The translations under genes and the position numbers were made by a program. Positions 22,254 through 64,000 of a DNA stretch of 64,000 bases are shown piece after piece. Origin of the DNA: Candidatus Gastranaerophilales bacterium. GTDB taxonomy: Bacteria > Cyanobacteriota > Vampirovibrionia > Gastranaerophilales > Gastranaerophilaceae. The notes under the pieces were generated by a model. The model saw only the letters and a list, made by a program, of their open reading frames with translations, ran no database searches and had not been told where the DNA came from. Numbering within the stretch: the first letter of the stretch is position 1; each line of letters opens with the position of its first letter. The DNA lies in assembly GCA_944323155.1 (NCBI GenBank), contig CALURL010000008.1, positions 1 to 64,000 of the forward strand, written 5' to 3'.

Positions 22254-23060
22254 TTACCATGGATAATCGTCTTTTATCTGCCAGCCGTCATACTGGATAA
22301 GACCACCACACCAAGCGCCTGAAAACTTATTATTTGAGTCATATTTACATCCTCTGGCACCATTCAACAAATTCTCTCTTGTTTGGCCTATCCCATACAT
22401 ATTAATTTTCGATGAATTTGGTTCAATTATTAAAGTAAAAACATCTCTTCCATAAATATTAGGACCTTTTTTACCATTTATGTCAACCATAATAAAAATT
22501 ATATAACCATATTTTGTAACACCGCCATGATTGGCGCCACCATCATTATCATAAGCTAATTTAACTACCATACCATCATTCATTATAAAACGATAATCGT
22601 TATAACTTGATTGATTCGCAGACACACGTAGCGAGCCGTCACGATTATATATTTCATAAGAACACTTTGTTCTTCCTGATGTACCAGAGGGGCAATTTTC
22701 TACTTTTTTAATATTTGGGATTAAATATTTATTTGCAAAATTGTTCAAAGCACTATTAGTTTCTGAGGCATCCAGCCCGCTAACATACCCCCAGCCGGAC
22801 ATATCGCCGTAATCCTTCTGTGCCATAACAAGTGCCTGACTTATTGTTGTATAAGCTTTCTTTAATTGAGTTACTGTTACATTTTTTTGATAATTTAAAA
22901 TTACAGAAGGTAAGGTCATTGCAGCAACAACACCTATAATTCCTAAAGTTATCAAAACTTCCGCTAAAGTAAATCCTAGTGACTTCTTAAATTTAATACA
23001 TACAATATCACTACTATAACAAGTATATGTAGGTTGGGCTTTCAGCCCAACAAATTTCAA
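22254..23060 (-). CDS. Type IV pilin/type II secretion pseudopilin-like protein (body of a split frame)
   Basis: The prepilin signature GFTLAEVLITLGIIGVVAAM is clear: Gly at -1, Phe +1, Glu +5, then a hydrophobic helix. A globular domain with Cys pairs and a GWG/WCGG-rich C-terminus follows. This frame opens only at a weak TTG (23060) and its leader runs through a GTTGGGC hairpin repeat. A strong AGGAGG site and ATG lie upstream at 23128, but a ten-G tract puts them one base out of frame. With 8 or 11 G the two frames fuse into one about 54-residue leader plus pilin. As sequenced the gene is probably off or poorly expressed. Confidence 0.85.
   Translation of the reverse strand: MKFVGLKAQPTYTCYSSDIVCIKFKKSLGFTLAEVLITLGIIGVVAAMTLPSVILNYQKNVTVTQLKKAYTTISQALVMAQKDYGDMSGWGYVSGLDASETNSALNNFANKYLIPNIKKVENCPSGTSGRTKCSYEIYNRDGSLRVSANQSSYNDYRFIMNDGMVVKLAYDNDGGANHGGVTKYGYIIFIMVDINGKKGPNIYGRDVFTLIIEPNSSKINMYGIGQTRENLLNGARGCKYDSNNKFSGAWCGGLIQYDGWQIKDDYPW
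23033..23051. repeat. GTTGGGC hairpin repeat
   Basis: Perfect 8-bp arms GTTGGGCT/AGCCCAAC with a 3-nt loop. It lies inside the leader coding region of the prepilin-like gene. A related palindrome with the same GTTGGGC core occurs at 55062-55081, so this may be a dispersed REP-like element. Confidence 0.6.
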
Positions 23061-23074
23061 TATATTACCTGAAA

Positions 23075-23128
23075 CTACCTCTGCGCCTGTGCCCCCCCCC
23101 CGTGAGCACGTCTTATCTCTTTGTACAT
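23075..23128 (-). CDS. Leader frame of the prepilin-like gene, cut off by the G tract
   Basis: An ATG at 23128 lies 3 nt after an AAGGAGGAAT ribosome site. The frame MYKEIRRAHGGGAQAQR stops at TAG after 17 codons because the ten-G tract shifts it. One more G, or two fewer, would join it to the pilin frame without a stop. As a separate 17-residue product it has no expected function. Confidence 0.7.
   Translation of the reverse strand: MYKEIRRAHGGGAQAQR
23092..23101. repeat. C10/G10 homopolymer, candidate phase-variation tract
   Basis: Ten consecutive C on the plus strand (G on the coding strand) start ten codons into the leader frame. Such tracts are highly unlikely by chance in DNA this AT-rich, and are typical sites of slipped-strand mispairing. 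Confidence 0.8.
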
Positions 23129-57877: not shown

Positions 57878-57974
57878 AAATAAATTATAATATTTGATTT
57901 ATTTAATAATGTTGTTGTATACTTTGCATGAAAATTTCAATCGCAAACGCAAAAGGTTTTATACATTTAACACT

Positions 57975-59069
57975 ATGACAAATAATCTTATACACAAAAA
58001 AGTAGGAATCCCGCGGGCAATCTCTTATTATAATAACTACCCATTTTATTATGGCTTTTTTAAAGCACTTGGAATAGAAATAATATTATCAGATAAAACA
58101 ACTACAAAAATTATTAATCTTGGAACAAAATATGTGGTTTCAGAAACTTGTTTGCCAATAAAAGTTTATGTCGGACATGTTGTTAATTTGTTAGACAAAG
58201 GCTGTGATGTAATATTTATTCCTTCAATTCAATCAACAGATTACAAAATTAACAACTGCAGTAAAATCAGAGGCTTACCGGAAATAATCAGAAATGTAAT
58301 AAATCGTCCGTTTACAATGATTGAACCAACATTAGACAAAACTGAAAATATTAACTTTTATGATTTTTGGACAGAAACCGCTAAAGCTTTTGGAATAACT
58401 GACAAAAATCAAATTAAATCTGCAATTAATTCCGGCTGGAGAGTTTATAACAATTTTATAGAAATGACTAAATCAGGAGTATCTTATTGTGAAGCGTTAG
58501 AAAATGCCATAAATGGGAAGTTCGAGAAAAAGACAGTAGATCTGGTGAAACCGCTTTCAATAGCAATAATGGCGCATGGATACAACCTTTTCGACGAACG
58601 AATTTCTTTAAATTTAATCAAAAAATTAGAAAAGATGGATGTAAAAGTTTATACATCTTTAAGTGTTACCAGAGAAGAATCGTTAAAAGCCATTGAAAAT
58701 CTTGGAGAAATTCAATATTGGGCTAACGAACTTGAATTAACCGGTACAGCTGCACATTATTTATTAAATAACAAAGTAGACGGAATTATAGCACTTTCAG
58801 CCTTCGGCTGCGGGCCTGATTCTTTAATGGTTGATGAAATTGCTTACCACTGCAAAGAACGAAATATGCCGCTTATTCACTTAACCATCGATGAACACAC
58901 CGGAGAAGCAGGATTTATCACTCGAATTGAAGCTTTTATAGATATGCTTATGAGAAAGAAAAGAAAACTGCTTGATAAAAAACATAAACAAACTACAATA
59001 CAAACCAAATCATTTGAAGAAGCAGCTTCTATTAGAAAAAGCAAAGTTTTAACAGGTTCAATGCAATAA
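57975..59069 (+). CDS. HgdB/DUF2229-like Fe-S protein, copy A
   Basis: The protein (364 residues from the ATG at 57975) resembles the dehydratase-like part of 2-hydroxyacyl-CoA dehydratase and CoA-activase-related proteins. GIPRAISYYNNYPFYYGFFK at the start, SAFGCGPDSLMVDEIA and LTIDEHTGEAGFITRIEAF near the end are shared with the gene at 60085. Cys at 59, near 95 and in the FGC segment align with Cys in copy B and could hold a [4Fe-4S] cluster. No activator ATPase is encoded nearby. An earlier in-frame TTG at 57894 is less likely. Its last base overlaps the PHP start. Confidence 0.8.
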   Translation: MTNNLIHKKVGIPRAISYYNNYPFYYGFFKALGIEIILSDKTTTKIINLGTKYVVSETCLPIKVYVGHVVNLLDKGCDVIFIPSIQSTDYKINNCSKIRGLPEIIRNVINRPFTMIEPTLDKTENINFYDFWTETAKAFGITDKNQIKSAINSGWRVYNNFIEMTKSGVSYCEALENAINGKFEKKTVDLVKPLSIAIMAHGYNLFDERISLNLIKKLEKMDVKVYTSLSVTREESLKAIENLGEIQYWANELELTGTAAHYLLNNKVDGIIALSAFGCGPDSLMVDEIAYHCKERNMPLIHLTIDEHTGEAGFITRIEAFIDMLMRKKRKLLDKKHKQTTIQTKSFEEAASIRKSKVLTGSMQ

Positions 59070-60064
59070 TGTATACCAACGATTTTACAAAACCCTATTA
59101 TTATCCTGGTGCAATTCATATACATACTAAATTTTCAGATGGTTCAGGTGATATTCAGCAAATAACAAGAGCTGCTAAAAAAAACGGACTCAAATGGATT
59201 ATAATAACAGACCATAATAATCTTGAAATTGAAGAAGGATTTTACAATGGAGTTTGCGTAATTAAAGGTGAAGAAATTTCACCGCCAGATTCAAATCACT
59301 ATCTTGCACTTGGCATAAATAAAGTCATAACACCATGTGATAATCCAGAAATTTATATTGAAGAAGTAAAGAAACAAGGCGGTTTTGGTTTTGCTGCACA
59401 TCCAGATGAAGCCGATAACAGAAAAAACAAAGCTAAACCAATAAAATGGACAGATAAAACCATAATTCCTGATGGAATTGAGATATGGAACTGGTTTTCA
59501 GACTGGGCTGATAACTATGATGAAACAAATATTTTAAAAATCGCCTACAGTTATTTTGGCAAAAATAAATTAATAAAAGGCCCGCATAGTGAAACTTTAA
59601 AATGGTGGGATGATTTAAATAATAAAACAAATGATATTATTCCAGCAATAGGCGGTGTAGATGCGCATGCTTTAAAAATCTCAAAATACATAATCCCATT
59701 AAAAGTTTTTCCATACAAATGCATGTTTAAAACAGTGACAAACCTTTTGCAGATAGATGAATTACCGCCAAAAGATTTTAACGCACAAAAAGCTTTAATT
59801 TTAAAATCTATAAAATCAGGTAATAACATTATAATAAACAGACATATAAGAGATGAAATTCCAATAATCAAAGTTTGTGATAAATCTCTTATCATTAAAC
59901 TTTCAGTCAATGCAGAAATGCGTATTGTTTATAATGGTTCTGTAATTCATAAAACAATTAACAAATTTTTGAATTATAAATTAGCTCAACAAGGGAAATA
60001 CAGAGTAGAAATTTATATAAATAAATCTCCATGGATATTTTCTAATCCTTTTATAATAACTTAA
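59069..60064 (+). CDS. PHP-domain metal-dependent phosphoesterase
   Basis: The 331-residue protein has the PHP motifs YPGAIHIHTKFSDGSGD (near 12-28), IIITDHNNLEIEEGF (near 46-60), FAAHPDE and GGVDAHAL, so the metal site is intact. The first 230 residues are the PHP fold, and the last 100 form a beta-rich domain that often follows it. Its ATG overlaps the stop of copy A (TAATG), so the two are coupled. A role tied to the HgdB-like pair is likely but unproven. Confidence 0.83.
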   Translation: MYTNDFTKPYYYPGAIHIHTKFSDGSGDIQQITRAAKKNGLKWIIITDHNNLEIEEGFYNGVCVIKGEEISPPDSNHYLALGINKVITPCDNPEIYIEEVKKQGGFGFAAHPDEADNRKNKAKPIKWTDKTIIPDGIEIWNWFSDWADNYDETNILKIAYSYFGKNKLIKGPHSETLKWWDDLNNKTNDIIPAIGGVDAHALKISKYIIPLKVFPYKCMFKTVTNLLQIDELPPKDFNAQKALILKSIKSGNNIIINRHIRDEIPIIKVCDKSLIIKLSVNAEMRIVYNGSVIHKTINKFLNYKLAQQGKYRVEIYINKSPWIFSNPFIIT

Positions 60065-60084
60065 ATTCGTGTTAGGATACTTTT

Positions 60085-61236
60085 ATGAAAATGAAAGAAA
60101 AACTTGAAAAAGAAAAAATGGGAAATACAATTCCGGCCCAAAACCGTATAATTGCATGGCCAAGAATGGGAAGAATTGATATTCCGCTAAAAGCATTACT
60201 TGTTTCTTTAGGAGCAAAAGTTGTTATTCCGCCGCCAAACAGCAATGAAGCTTTGGAAATAGGTGTTAGAAACAGTATTGAAGGTATTTGTTTACCGTAC
60301 AAATTAAATCTTGCAAATTACATAATGGCTCTTGATAAAGGTGCAAATACTTTAATGATGTTTCAGGCACCAGGCTCTTGCAGACTTGGAAATTATACCA
60401 AAATGGCTCAAAAAACTCTTAAACAAATGGGTTATGAGTTTGACATGGTAATATTTGATATGTACAAAAGCAAGATGAAACAAACCCTTCAGGCTTTCTG
60501 GCATGTAACCCGTTGCATAAACCCGTGGCGATATTACAAAGGTTTTAGCCTTGGGTTTAACAAATTTTTTGCTATAGACACTGCAGAAAGACTATTATTC
60601 TACACACGCCCCAGAGAAATTCATAAAGGTGATGCCGAAAAATGTTACAACAAATGGCTTCAAATAGTCGATGAAACAAATTCTGTGTGGAAAGCAAAAC
60701 AATTAAAAAAACAAATTATCAAAGATTTTAAACAAATTCCAATAGACAAAAATAAAGATGTTCCTATTGTTTATTTAATTGGAGAATTTTTTGTATTGCT
60801 CGATCCATATACAAATCAAAATATTGAAAAAGAATTAGGCGACATGGGCGTAGAAGTTCAGCGCCAGATAATGTTCGGCGATTGGCTGGAACATGTTTTA
60901 AAGCCGTCGATTTTTTACAGAAAAGAATCCCATAGAGAGCGCTCCGTAAGATATGCAGAAAAATATATGAAACGGGCAATAGGCGGGGAATGTATTGAAA
61001 CCATCGGTGATACAGTGTATGCAGCAAAACACGGTGTTGACGGCATAATTCATATTTCTCCATTTTCCTGCATGCCGGAAATTGTTGCCCAAAATATTCT
61101 TCCCAAAGTGAGTAAAGAAGAAGATATACCTGTTATGTCACTGGTTTTAGATGAACAAACAGGCAAAGCCGGATACATCACACGTATAGAAGCTTTTATA
61201 GACCTCGTTAAAAGAAATAAGCTAAGAAAAAAATAA
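60085..61236 (+). CDS. HgdB/DUF2229-like Fe-S protein, copy B
   Basis: The 383-residue protein is a paralogue of the gene at 57975. SIEGICLPYKLNLANYIMA (near 64-82) aligns with the copy A Cys59 region, QAPGSCRLGNY (near 94-104) with its second Cys region, and HISPFSCMPEIV and LDEQTGKAGYITRIEAFIDL with its end. Three Cys in equivalent places in both proteins suggest a shared Fe-S site or a heterodimer. An AGGAT site precedes the start. It follows the PHP gene by 21 nt. Confidence 0.8.
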   Translation: MKMKEKLEKEKMGNTIPAQNRIIAWPRMGRIDIPLKALLVSLGAKVVIPPPNSNEALEIGVRNSIEGICLPYKLNLANYIMALDKGANTLMMFQAPGSCRLGNYTKMAQKTLKQMGYEFDMVIFDMYKSKMKQTLQAFWHVTRCINPWRYYKGFSLGFNKFFAIDTAERLLFYTRPREIHKGDAEKCYNKWLQIVDETNSVWKAKQLKKQIIKDFKQIPIDKNKDVPIVYLIGEFFVLLDPYTNQNIEKELGDMGVEVQRQIMFGDWLEHVLKPSIFYRKESHRERSVRYAEKYMKRAIGGECIETIGDTVYAAKHGVDGIIHISPFSCMPEIVAQNILPKVSKEEDIPVMSLVLDEQTGKAGYITRIEAFIDLVKRNKLRKK

Positions 61237-61360
61237 TAAAATATGTAAAGATTGTGACATTTATCTTACCCATGTGGCTAAATTTTCTTGCTAGATAATT
61301 GTGTTCATGATAGCTTTAGAGAAAGAAAAAGAAGGTCTTAAGTAAAGAGGGGATTGAATA

Positions 61361-62416
61361 ATGGCAACAGAATCCAGAAACAAAATGACATTTGAACGTT
61401 TAAAATATTATAAACATCTCGGGGGGGGGGCACTTGAATGCATTGCCAGCAGGCTTTCACGGACTCCAAAACCTCTGTGTTTTTCACTTATGGTTACAAG
61501 CAAATGTAATTGCGACTGTGATTTTTGTTTCTGGAAATCTAAAAAAGGTCAAGACGATATGCCGACTGATGAAATCGTAAGACTTTTGACAGAAGCCGGA
61601 CAAATAGGTTATATGGATAGCATTCTCTGGGGTGGCGAACCTCTTATGAGACAAGATTTTACAGAAATATGCAAAGCCTCTCATGATGCAGGTTTATATA
61701 CAAAAATCGCGACAAACGGCTGGTTTTTGGAAACTAATCCCGGATTTGCAAAATATACAGATTTGATGTTTGTATCACTTGATGCTATTGGAAAAGCTCA
61801 TGATGATATTCGTCATATGCCTGGAATTTGTGATAAAGTTATGAGCGGTATTGAATACCATAAAGTTCACTCTCCGAAAATGAGAATTTATGTCTGCTGT
61901 ACAGTTTCAACTCAAACTAACTTTGAACAAATTAAAGAAGTTGCACAATACTGCAAAGATGCTGATATATTATTATACTTTACTGTTAATAAAGCTGCTT
62001 CAGTACCTGACGAAGCAGAAAATGTTGTTGAAACAGAACTTGAAAACGAACAATTAGCAGAAATGTTTATAAAAATTAAAGAACTCAAAAAACAAGGATA
62101 TCCAATTAGAAATTCATACTATTTCATGGATTACATTATTAATAAGAAAACATACTATGAATGCCACTGGCCAAGAATTGCAACTGTTATCTATTCAAAC
62201 GGAGAAATGCTTCGCTGTTATGACAGAAAACCTTTTATCAGCGTAAGAAACAGATCTTTGAAAGATGTTATAAAAGATCCTCTGTTTATTGAAACAGTTA
62301 ATAAATGCAAAGACTGCAAACTAGCCTGTGTTGGCAACTACGCGCTTGACGCATCAGGTTTGTGGAAACTTGAGTGGCCGGCTATTAAATCATTAATGGA
62401 AATTGCTATTACTTAA
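61361..62416 (+). CDS. Radical SAM protein with a C-terminal Cys-rich region and a G10 tract
   Basis: The 351-residue protein has the radical SAM motif CNCDCDFC (C49, C53, C56), a WGGEPLMR segment for SAM binding, and C-terminal Cys residues (ECHWPR, RCYDRK, CKDCKLAC) like a SPASM or twitch extension that binds a second cluster. Codons 20-24 include ten consecutive G (61421-61430), read in frame here as Leu-Gly-Gly-Gly-Ala. A change of tract length by one or two would truncate the protein before the catalytic core. A GAGGGG site precedes the ATG. It likely modifies a peptide or a cell-surface component. Its specific reaction is unknown. Confidence 0.87.
   Translation: MATESRNKMTFERLKYYKHLGGGALECIASRLSRTPKPLCFSLMVTSKCNCDCDFCFWKSKKGQDDMPTDEIVRLLTEAGQIGYMDSILWGGEPLMRQDFTEICKASHDAGLYTKIATNGWFLETNPGFAKYTDLMFVSLDAIGKAHDDIRHMPGICDKVMSGIEYHKVHSPKMRIYVCCTVSTQTNFEQIKEVAQYCKDADILLYFTVNKAASVPDEAENVVETELENEQLAEMFIKIKELKKQGYPIRNSYYFMDYIINKKTYYECHWPRIATVIYSNGEMLRCYDRKPFISVRNRSLKDVIKDPLFIETVNKCKDCKLACVGNYALDASGLWKLEWPAIKSLMEIAIT
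61421..61430. repeat. G10 homopolymer in the radical SAM gene
   Basis: Ten G in a row lie about 60 nt after the start codon. GGG codons are not favoured in AT-rich DNA, so the tract looks selected. It is a candidate slipped-strand switch, with the gene in frame at this length. Confidence 0.8.
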
Positions 62417-62468
62417 AAATAAATAATTATAAAAAATCTGGGTTACTTTGGAAATATAAAGGGAAATC

Positions 62469-64000
62469 ATGAAAAAAATAATTACCTTATTATTGTTATT
62501 AACATTCTGTACAGAATCAACTGTGTTTGCAGCAGCTTCAACTTACGCGCCGAACTATAATAACAGTAATATTAATAATCAATATACACAAGTTCAACAA
62601 CAGTATCCGTATCAGAATCAGTACCAGCAGCAATATTCTTTGCAGCAACAGTATCAATATCAGCCAGGCGCATCACAAATTCAAACTGCACCAATTCCTC
62701 AACAAAATGCGACTGCGAAATTACGGTATATTCAGCAGGAAGATGCACGGGCAAATGTAGATGCTTTTGACAATAACTACCAGTCATCAGTATTAAAAAG
62801 CTTGCCAATGCAAACATTAAGCCCGATTGAACAAATGTTTAACGGCAAAGAAGCTGAAGTTTCTGGTAAAGTTCTTCTTCAAGCCGGATATGATTTGTTC
62901 TCTTCACAATTAAATCAACAGACGCAGCCAACAACAGGAAAATTTGATAATTCATATAGACTTAATATCGGTGAAAAACTCAACGTATATTTATACGGTG
63001 ATTCTGTAGATGTAATGGCGATTTCTGGTGCGAATTTGCTGAACCCGATGACAAAAACAGAAGTAGACTCCAAAGGGAATTTATTTATTCAAGGCATAGG
63101 TCTTGTGCCGGCTGAAAATAGAACAATTAACGATGTTGAAACAGCAATAAACAGGTTAGCTTCCCAAAAATATAAAAGCTTAAAAGTAAGGTTAACAGTA
63201 GCATCAGGACAAGAATTTTCTGTATTTGTATACGGTCAGGTTAATCGCCCCGGGAAAGTTCTTGTTGGAAACAATTCCTCTATATTTGATGCCCTAAACG
63301 CTGCCGGAGGCGTGAAAAAAACAGGTACATTAAGAAACATTGCTTACATATCTAATGGCAAAACTAAACAGGTGGATTTATATAAAACCCTTTTTAGCGC
63401 AAACGATGAGAATATAATTCTCAAACCTAACGACAAAATTTTTGTAGATAGAATAGGCAATGTTGCAGCTATTAGAAACGGAGTAACAGTCCCTGCAATT
63501 TATGAAGTAAAAGAGGGCGAAACACTTCAAAAAGTAATATCATATGCAGGCGGTTTGCTTCCGGCAACTCAGGTTACAGAAGTAACACTGACAGGATATG
63601 ACAAAAACACCAAACAACGTAATGCTAATAATATTTCCTGGTCAGATGCTAAAAATACCAAACTAAAAAGCGGTGATTCTGTAGAATTTAGAGAATTATA
63701 CAACACTGCTGAAAATATAGTAACCATTCAAGGTAATGTAAAACATCCGACAACTTATGCATACAAAGAAGGAATGAGATTATCTGATATCTTAAAAAGC
63801 GAAGATGAACTTTTAGAAGAAACATTCATAAATCAGGCTGTTATCAGAAGGGTTTCAGGAAAAGATAATTCTATAGAAACAATCCCTGTTTTCCTAAAAG
63901 AATTCTTTGCAGGTATGAACGATCCGATTTTACAACCAAGAGATATAATTAATGTATATAAAAATACAAATTCACAATTTGTAGATATTTATGGATGTGT
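62469..64000 (+). CDS. Polysaccharide export protein with SLBB domains (partial)
   Basis: The gene starts at ATG 62469 with an AAAGGGAAATC ribosome site and runs past the window end. A signal peptide (IITLLLLLTFCTESTVFA) is followed by a Gln/Tyr/Asn-rich low-complexity region to about residue 75. A Wza-type export domain comes next (YRLNIGEKLNVYLYGDS), then SLBB-like repeats (FVYGQVNRPGKVLVGNN, IQGNVKHPTTYAYKEGM). This is the outer-membrane polysaccharide export family. It directly follows the radical SAM gene by 52 nt. Confidence 0.88.
   Translation, partial: MKKIITLLLLLTFCTESTVFAAASTYAPNYNNSNINNQYTQVQQQYPYQNQYQQQYSLQQQYQYQPGASQIQTAPIPQQNATAKLRYIQQEDARANVDAFDNNYQSSVLKSLPMQTLSPIEQMFNGKEAEVSGKVLLQAGYDLFSSQLNQQTQPTTGKFDNSYRLNIGEKLNVYLYGDSVDVMAISGANLLNPMTKTEVDSKGNLFIQGIGLVPAENRTINDVETAINRLASQKYKSLKVRLTVASGQEFSVFVYGQVNRPGKVLVGNNSSIFDALNAAGGVKKTGTLRNIAYISNGKTKQVDLYKTLFSANDENIILKPNDKIFVDRIGNVAAIRNGVTVPAIYEVKEGETLQKVISYAGGLLPATQVTEVTLTGYDKNTKQRNANNISWSDAKNTKLKSGDSVEFRELYNTAENIVTIQGNVKHPTTYAYKEGMRLSDILKSEDELLEETFINQAVIRRVSGKDNSIETIPVFLKEFFAGMNDPILQPRDIINVYKNTNSQFVDIYGC

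Follow-up and report, generated by a model that had tools for sequence, protein, structure and literature searches.

The DNA analysed here, referred to as the window, is a stretch of 64,000 nucleotides with a GC content of 32.7 %, from an assembly of a Candidatus Gastranaerophilales bacterium (1.79 Mb in 34 contigs, 99.7 % complete). Only two runs of six or more G or C are present in it, each of ten nucleotides (Table 1), where under a dinucleotide model runs of at least ten would be expected about 0.003 times per 64 kb. One of them falls among the leader codons of a prepilin-type gene; the other, flanked by a C on both sides (61420 and 61431), is in a radical SAM gene. In the original prediction the latter was placed at codons 20-24 of a gene that is in frame, a change of tract length was said to cut the protein before its CxxxCxxC motif, and this gene was said to be on while the prepilin gene is off in the same sequence. 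The ten G and the frame are as predicted, with the start of the tract misplaced by one codon, since it spans codons 21-24. Products of 72 aa at G9 and 25 aa at G11 would both end before the motif (C49, C53, and C56), and at G10 the prepilin gene indeed encodes just 17 aa, against 351 aa for the radical SAM gene. The radical SAM protein also has a match to DUF3463 that is below the cut-off of that family, and it reaches none of the listed NCBIfam cut-offs.

Table 1. Genes and repeat tracts in the window and, in the last three rows, in-frame tract-containing genes elsewhere in the source genome (coordinates within the locus named).
Feature	Position	Strand	Remarks
Prepilin-type gene	22254..23128	-	17 aa at G10, 291 aa with N_methyl motif at G11; end derived from the 291-aa reading
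PF07963 match in the prepilin-type gene	22914-22988
G10 tract (C10 on the + strand) in prepilin leader codons	23092..23101	-	OFF; G11 would be ON
Second DUF2229/HGD-D gene	57894..59069	+	Conserved cluster
PHP-domain gene	59069-60064		Between both DUF2229/HGD-D genes
DUF2229/HGD-D (2-hydroxyglutaryl-CoA dehydratase-like) gene	60085..61236	+	Conserved upstream neighbour
Radical SAM gene, 351 aa	61361..62416	+	ATG at 61361; PF04055, E=2.4e-11; ORF intact at G10
G10 tract in the radical SAM gene	61421..61430	+	Codons 21-23 (GGG GGG GGG) and first base of codon 24 (GCA); in frame (ON)
Polysaccharide export gene (Poly_export, SLBB)	62469..64000, runs off the window	+	Immediately follows the radical SAM gene
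GT8 glycosyltransferase gene	L086:1487-2419		G11 in frame, deep within the gene, not at the 5' end
Nucleotidyltransferase and APH gene	L045:202-1815		G10 in frame, deep within the gene, not at the 5' end
Mur ligase-like gene	L094:1274-2656		G10 in frame, deep within the gene, not at the 5' end

The gene downstream of the radical SAM gene was correctly recognised as a polysaccharide exporter, and it is found directly downstream on the same strand in all 53 full-length radical SAM loci. It had also been taken as a sign of surface switching; on this point it is uninformative, because it is a conserved neighbour with or without a tract. The arrangement of DUF2229/HGD-D, PHP, DUF2229/HGD-D, radical SAM, and SLBB exporter genes is conserved as a cluster across the order (57894-64000 in the window; loci L121-L197).

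Relatives of the radical SAM gene were collected from 77 loci, 74 of which include the N-terminus. The sequence HLGGGALE (or HLFGG or HLAGG) is conserved while its codons vary, with all 74 keeping HL-(G/F/A/I/V/L)-GG and nearly all encoding it with mixed GGA, GGC, and GGT codons. About 70 of the 74 lack the run. It is G10 in L128, L130, and L195, and G8 followed by an A in L126, in frame in every case. When 383 family genomes were searched with other lengths allowed, a run at this motif was present in five and none was out of frame. The genes at L126 and L128 are identical outside the tract, which in one of them is interrupted by a synonymous G to A change, resembling the disrupted tracts of Campylobacter (PMC6321876).

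These comparisons do not favour the suggested role of the radical SAM tract as a control switch in its own right. Variation in its length between close relatives had been proposed as a check, and the tract, where present, is either G10 or interrupted, never out of frame; selection on the protein for three Gly with varied codons, named in the original prediction as a finding that would refute it, describes about 70 of the 74 relatives. It is on balance probable that the run arose by chance from the codons used for a Gly-Gly-Gly-Ala kept by the protein, and that it does not switch, the prepilin tracts being the real switches. The varied codons of the motif, the rarity and constant frame of the run, and the synonymous break in one of two otherwise identical genes are all consistent with this. 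On the other hand, GGG makes up 12 % of the Gly codons in this gene and three in a row would be found in about 0.2 % of genes; about 0.09 such genes are therefore expected in 45, and 4-5 of 74 were observed. In a tree built without the tract codons, at least three changes of label fall on well-supported branches, which makes about three separate origins of the run most likely, each with CTC in front of it. Codon choice would therefore give fewer such runs than were observed, although the run is not conserved and was not seen to vary in length. It is probably a recent, lineage-specific gain, at the protein-conserved Gly-Gly-Gly-Ala, of a run physically like those of the prepilin genes, which is ON and presumably able to slip. 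An incipient switch at this gene is possible; that the G10 tract already works as a functional switch is rather doubtful.

Genome-wide, there are 93 G/C runs of eight or more nucleotides, where 1.6-2.9 would be expected from the composition of the window. The proposal that the two tracts belong to a system of contingency loci, rather than being there by chance, is upheld by this excess, and the system is far larger than was proposed. As anticipated, the tracts are near 5' ends, above all those of prepilin genes. Across 89 distinct contexts, the lengths are 71 G10, 11 G11, three G9, two G8, one G12, and one G14. Flanks of approximately 1.5-2 kb were taken for nearly all of the tract loci, and every tract was translated at its own length and with one base added or removed.

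PF07963, an FTLxE N-terminal motif with a hydrophobic helix, has matches at 84 places in the source genome. A tract is just upstream of 69 of these (59 sense poly-G and 10 sense poly-C) and 15 are without one. The layout is recurrent: an ATG, about nine codons, the run, and then, when read at G11, a short segment leading to (G/A)FTLAEVLITLGIIGVVAAL, the type IV prepilin N-terminus. Counting only those in which start, tract, and motif are all present, there are 70 prepilin genes, 60 out of frame and 10 in frame in the assembly (approximately six in seven OFF), these calls resting on a start picked by script (an ATG with a Shine-Dalgarno sequence) and being weakest where the tract is sense poly-C or the leader has multiple starts. 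Most of the OFF genes are at G10, with G11 being ON, so that a single base separates a peptide of about 15 aa from a complete prepilin, and the downstream frame is intact in the 70 genes. In 49 of the 70 there is no in-frame start between the tract and the motif; these prepilins therefore depend on the tract.

The OFF genes are otherwise intact. A Shine-Dalgarno sequence of at least 5 nt is ahead of 66 of the 69 starts, and a perfect TATAAT is 18-60 nt upstream of 35 of the 69, compared with 12 in shuffled sequences. The mature frames are mostly longer than 200 aa, with a few short ones of 44-133 aa, and there is an internal stop in just one of the 84 PF07963 matches. Purifying selection is evident in pairs of paralogues in which both copies are OFF, with dN/dS of 0.16-0.32 (for alignments exceeding 80 aa; some dS values are above 1, and the figures for those pairs are rough).

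Leaders are about 25 residues long in the largest class and exceed 40 residues in many others. Sense poly-C leaders, in which the tract encodes Pro, are found in the source genome beside the poly-G ones (L041, L055, L056, L067, L104, L114, and L117). Four leaders (L051, L100, L078, and L301) contain inserted repeats between the tract and the cleavage motif, read as PLPMGEGARRAGEG or as VGWAF/VGWAL, and those bearing inserts reach 50-100 residues. Insertions into the prepilin leader appear to be tolerated.

Runs of ten or more are present in 117 of 146 family genomes, with between none and more than 120 per genome. A strict ATGA...G8...FTLAE pattern gave few matches in these relatives, because their leaders are longer than the pattern permits, and a plain tract search was used instead. 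The layout is the same in two genomes of the source genus (G022 and G058), the leader peptides of which differ, and in G022 there are near-identical leaders with G10, G11, and G12 (L222, L226, and L228; L202; L245 and L246). Near-identical leaders span G9-G12, and both ON and OFF states are seen among the copies, the comparison being between paralogues rather than alleles. In other genera the leaders are unrelated and the usual lengths differ; the layout is the same and the genes are again mostly OFF. For example, G009 has mostly G13 tracts, with ON at G12, and G003 mostly G11, with ON at G10. In G122 the tracts are G10, with ON at G11, and in G068 they are C9 or G9, with ON at 10. Among the loci sampled, those of G316 are mostly C10 and those of G098, of the same genus, are poly-G. 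Orthologous prepilins differing in tract length were sought between G098 and G316 and none were found. The tracts of G020 (L302, L308, L314, L320, and L326) are G14-G20, far longer than elsewhere in the family.

Over 13 genomes, 148 loci are OFF and 23 are ON. For the first 146 loci, a pooled binomial comparison against one third ON gives P of approximately 1.7e-8, a value that takes no account of shared ancestry and is overstated, because copies within a genome share the ancestry of their leaders. Grouped by leader family, the loci are most often OFF in nearly all families, which is no more than suggestive.

It is likely that the source genome carries a large slipped-strand phase-variation system in its prepilin genes. 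In the mechanism proposed, each of approximately 70 prepilin-type genes would be expressed from a strong Shine-Dalgarno sequence and, mostly, from its own TATAAT-like promoter, with a tract of G or of C some nine codons past the start and upstream of a predicted prepilin peptidase site. Replication slippage by one base in either direction would reversibly swap the gene between the abortive peptide (OFF) and the full prepilin (ON). Judging from the motif, removal of the leader would take away the Gly or Pro residues added by any in-frame length; since the run is within the removable leader, each in-frame length would yield the same mature pilin. With most copies resting OFF in the assembled sequence, few pilins would be made at once. 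MutS, of mismatch repair, is encoded in the source genome, and the absence of a mismatch repair system was for this reason rejected. Its presence would lower slippage and in this respect counts against phase variation.

Programmed frameshifting, in which the ribosome or RNA polymerase adds or skips a base at a slippery OFF tract while the DNA is unchanged, would fit both the fairly uniform length within the genome (71 of 89 being G10) and the purifying selection on OFF genes. It is, however, an unlikely explanation of the prepilin tracts. The change required differs, being one base more in g1, g41, and g38 and one fewer in g10 and g4, poly-C is used as well as poly-G, and near-identical leaders vary in length. 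That ON is reached by a gain in some genera and by a loss in others, and that poly-C is also usable, argues against frameshifting programmed in one direction. Nor is uniformity of length an oddity, since a tight range is normal for phase-variable tracts, the switches of Campylobacter being similarly uniform at 52 % G9 and 30 % G10 (PMC6321876). Low-level slippage during expression may occur besides switching of the DNA.

Likewise, homopolymers are prone to error and some tracts are at the ends of contigs, therefore it might be supposed that the real tracts are G11 and in frame, and that they were shortened in the consensus by sequencing or assembly. This is very improbable, as runs of G9, G11, G12, and G14 are all present in one genome and in other assemblies it is shortening that would bring genes into frame (G13 to G12 and G11 to G10); with the usual lengths elsewhere being too long, a common bias towards shortening fails to explain the OFF states. 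That the OFF state marks prepilin copies that have decayed, as the few mature frames of 44-133 aa might suggest, is scarcely credible, given open frames of more than 200 aa at most of the 84 PF07963 matches with one internal stop among them, dN/dS values well below 1 for OFF pairs, and Shine-Dalgarno sequences that are intact in nearly all.

Beyond slipped-strand switching in the source genome, a wider reading is proposed tentatively, in which Gastranaerophilales, as non-photosynthetic gut cyanobacteria, would possess dozens of pilins that are OFF by default and independently switched by their leader runs, with a random few made per cell. Leaders and runs would have been replaced repeatedly, between poly-G and poly-C and anew in each genus, with the OFF state kept, and core genes such as the radical SAM gene would be in the course of being recruited.

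Multigene families with independently switched copies are known from the Opa proteins of Neisseria, which are outer membrane proteins encoded by approximately 4-11 genes and switched by CTCTT pentamer repeats in the codons of a cleaved signal peptide. The prepilin genes are similar in forming a multigene family with one independent switch per copy, the switch here being a G/C run in the prepilin leader. The pilC tract of Neisseria is also in signal-peptide codons. PilC differs in being a tip adhesin; its signal peptide is of the ordinary type and there are one or two copies of its gene, whereas here approximately 70 prepilin subunits have their own tracts and are mostly OFF. What is shared with pilC1 and pilC2, which are type IV pilus genes, is a poly-G tract of about 9-10 in the coding region, where a change of one base truncates the protein, G10 to G9 being the change from on to off in Neisseria (PMC5231331). 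Campylobacter jejuni likewise has an AT-rich, host-associated genome with poly-G tracts that are mostly within ORFs and have tight lengths of about 9-10; its 18-39 phase-variable genes per genome compare with 93 runs here, concentrated in one gene family (PMC6321876). In Bifidobacterium breve, also a gut commensal, expression of sortase-dependent pili is tied to replication slippage at an intragenic G-tract, the lengths of which range within the population (PMC9187656). These are, however, sortase pili of a Gram-positive species, from two clusters, and there is no family of approximately 70 genes.

The mechanism is therefore already known; what is new is the scale, the concentration in a single gene family, the lineage, the location of the tract within a prepilin leader, and OFF as the state of rest. 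A full-text search of openly accessible journal papers found no report of phase variation in Gastranaerophilales, and the search for Melainabacteria together with phase variation matched only a survey of flagellins, as judged by its title and abstract. If correct, the prepilin system would be the first of its kind that we could find for this branch of Cyanobacteria and among the largest single-family phase-variable repertoires known to us, in uncultured gut bacteria of the order, its tracts outnumbering the phase-variable genes of C. jejuni more than twofold. Apparent pseudogenes of frameshifted pilins would then be switches, measurable cell-to-cell diversity of pili would be predicted in ordinary gut metagenomes, and selection of particular pilins by the host, by phages, or by competitors would become testable.

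In the source genome, tracts that are in frame are also found in three coding regions that are not prepilins, those of a GT8 glycosyltransferase, a nucleotidyltransferase/APH protein, and a Mur ligase-like protein, as would be expected if single-copy functions rest ON. The tracts sampled in G077 (L367-L384) are mostly within genes that, judged from their sequence, appear to be for surface polysaccharide, and these include both ON and OFF states; one of them (L384) is radical SAM-like and has an in-frame G10. Tracts are at contig ends in the source genome (C17:3 and C29:64) and at several contig ends of G014 and G003, therefore assemblies may break there and such loci may be undercounted. Within each of the source contigs C2, C4, C5, C6, and C7, the tracts are co-directional. 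This co-orientation prompted consideration of a strand function at the DNA level, such as that of a KOPS-like oriented motif, which was rejected because sense poly-C prepilins exist and the tracts follow the genes. The switched genes appear to be mostly on the same strand across approximately 100 kb, perhaps aligned with replication.
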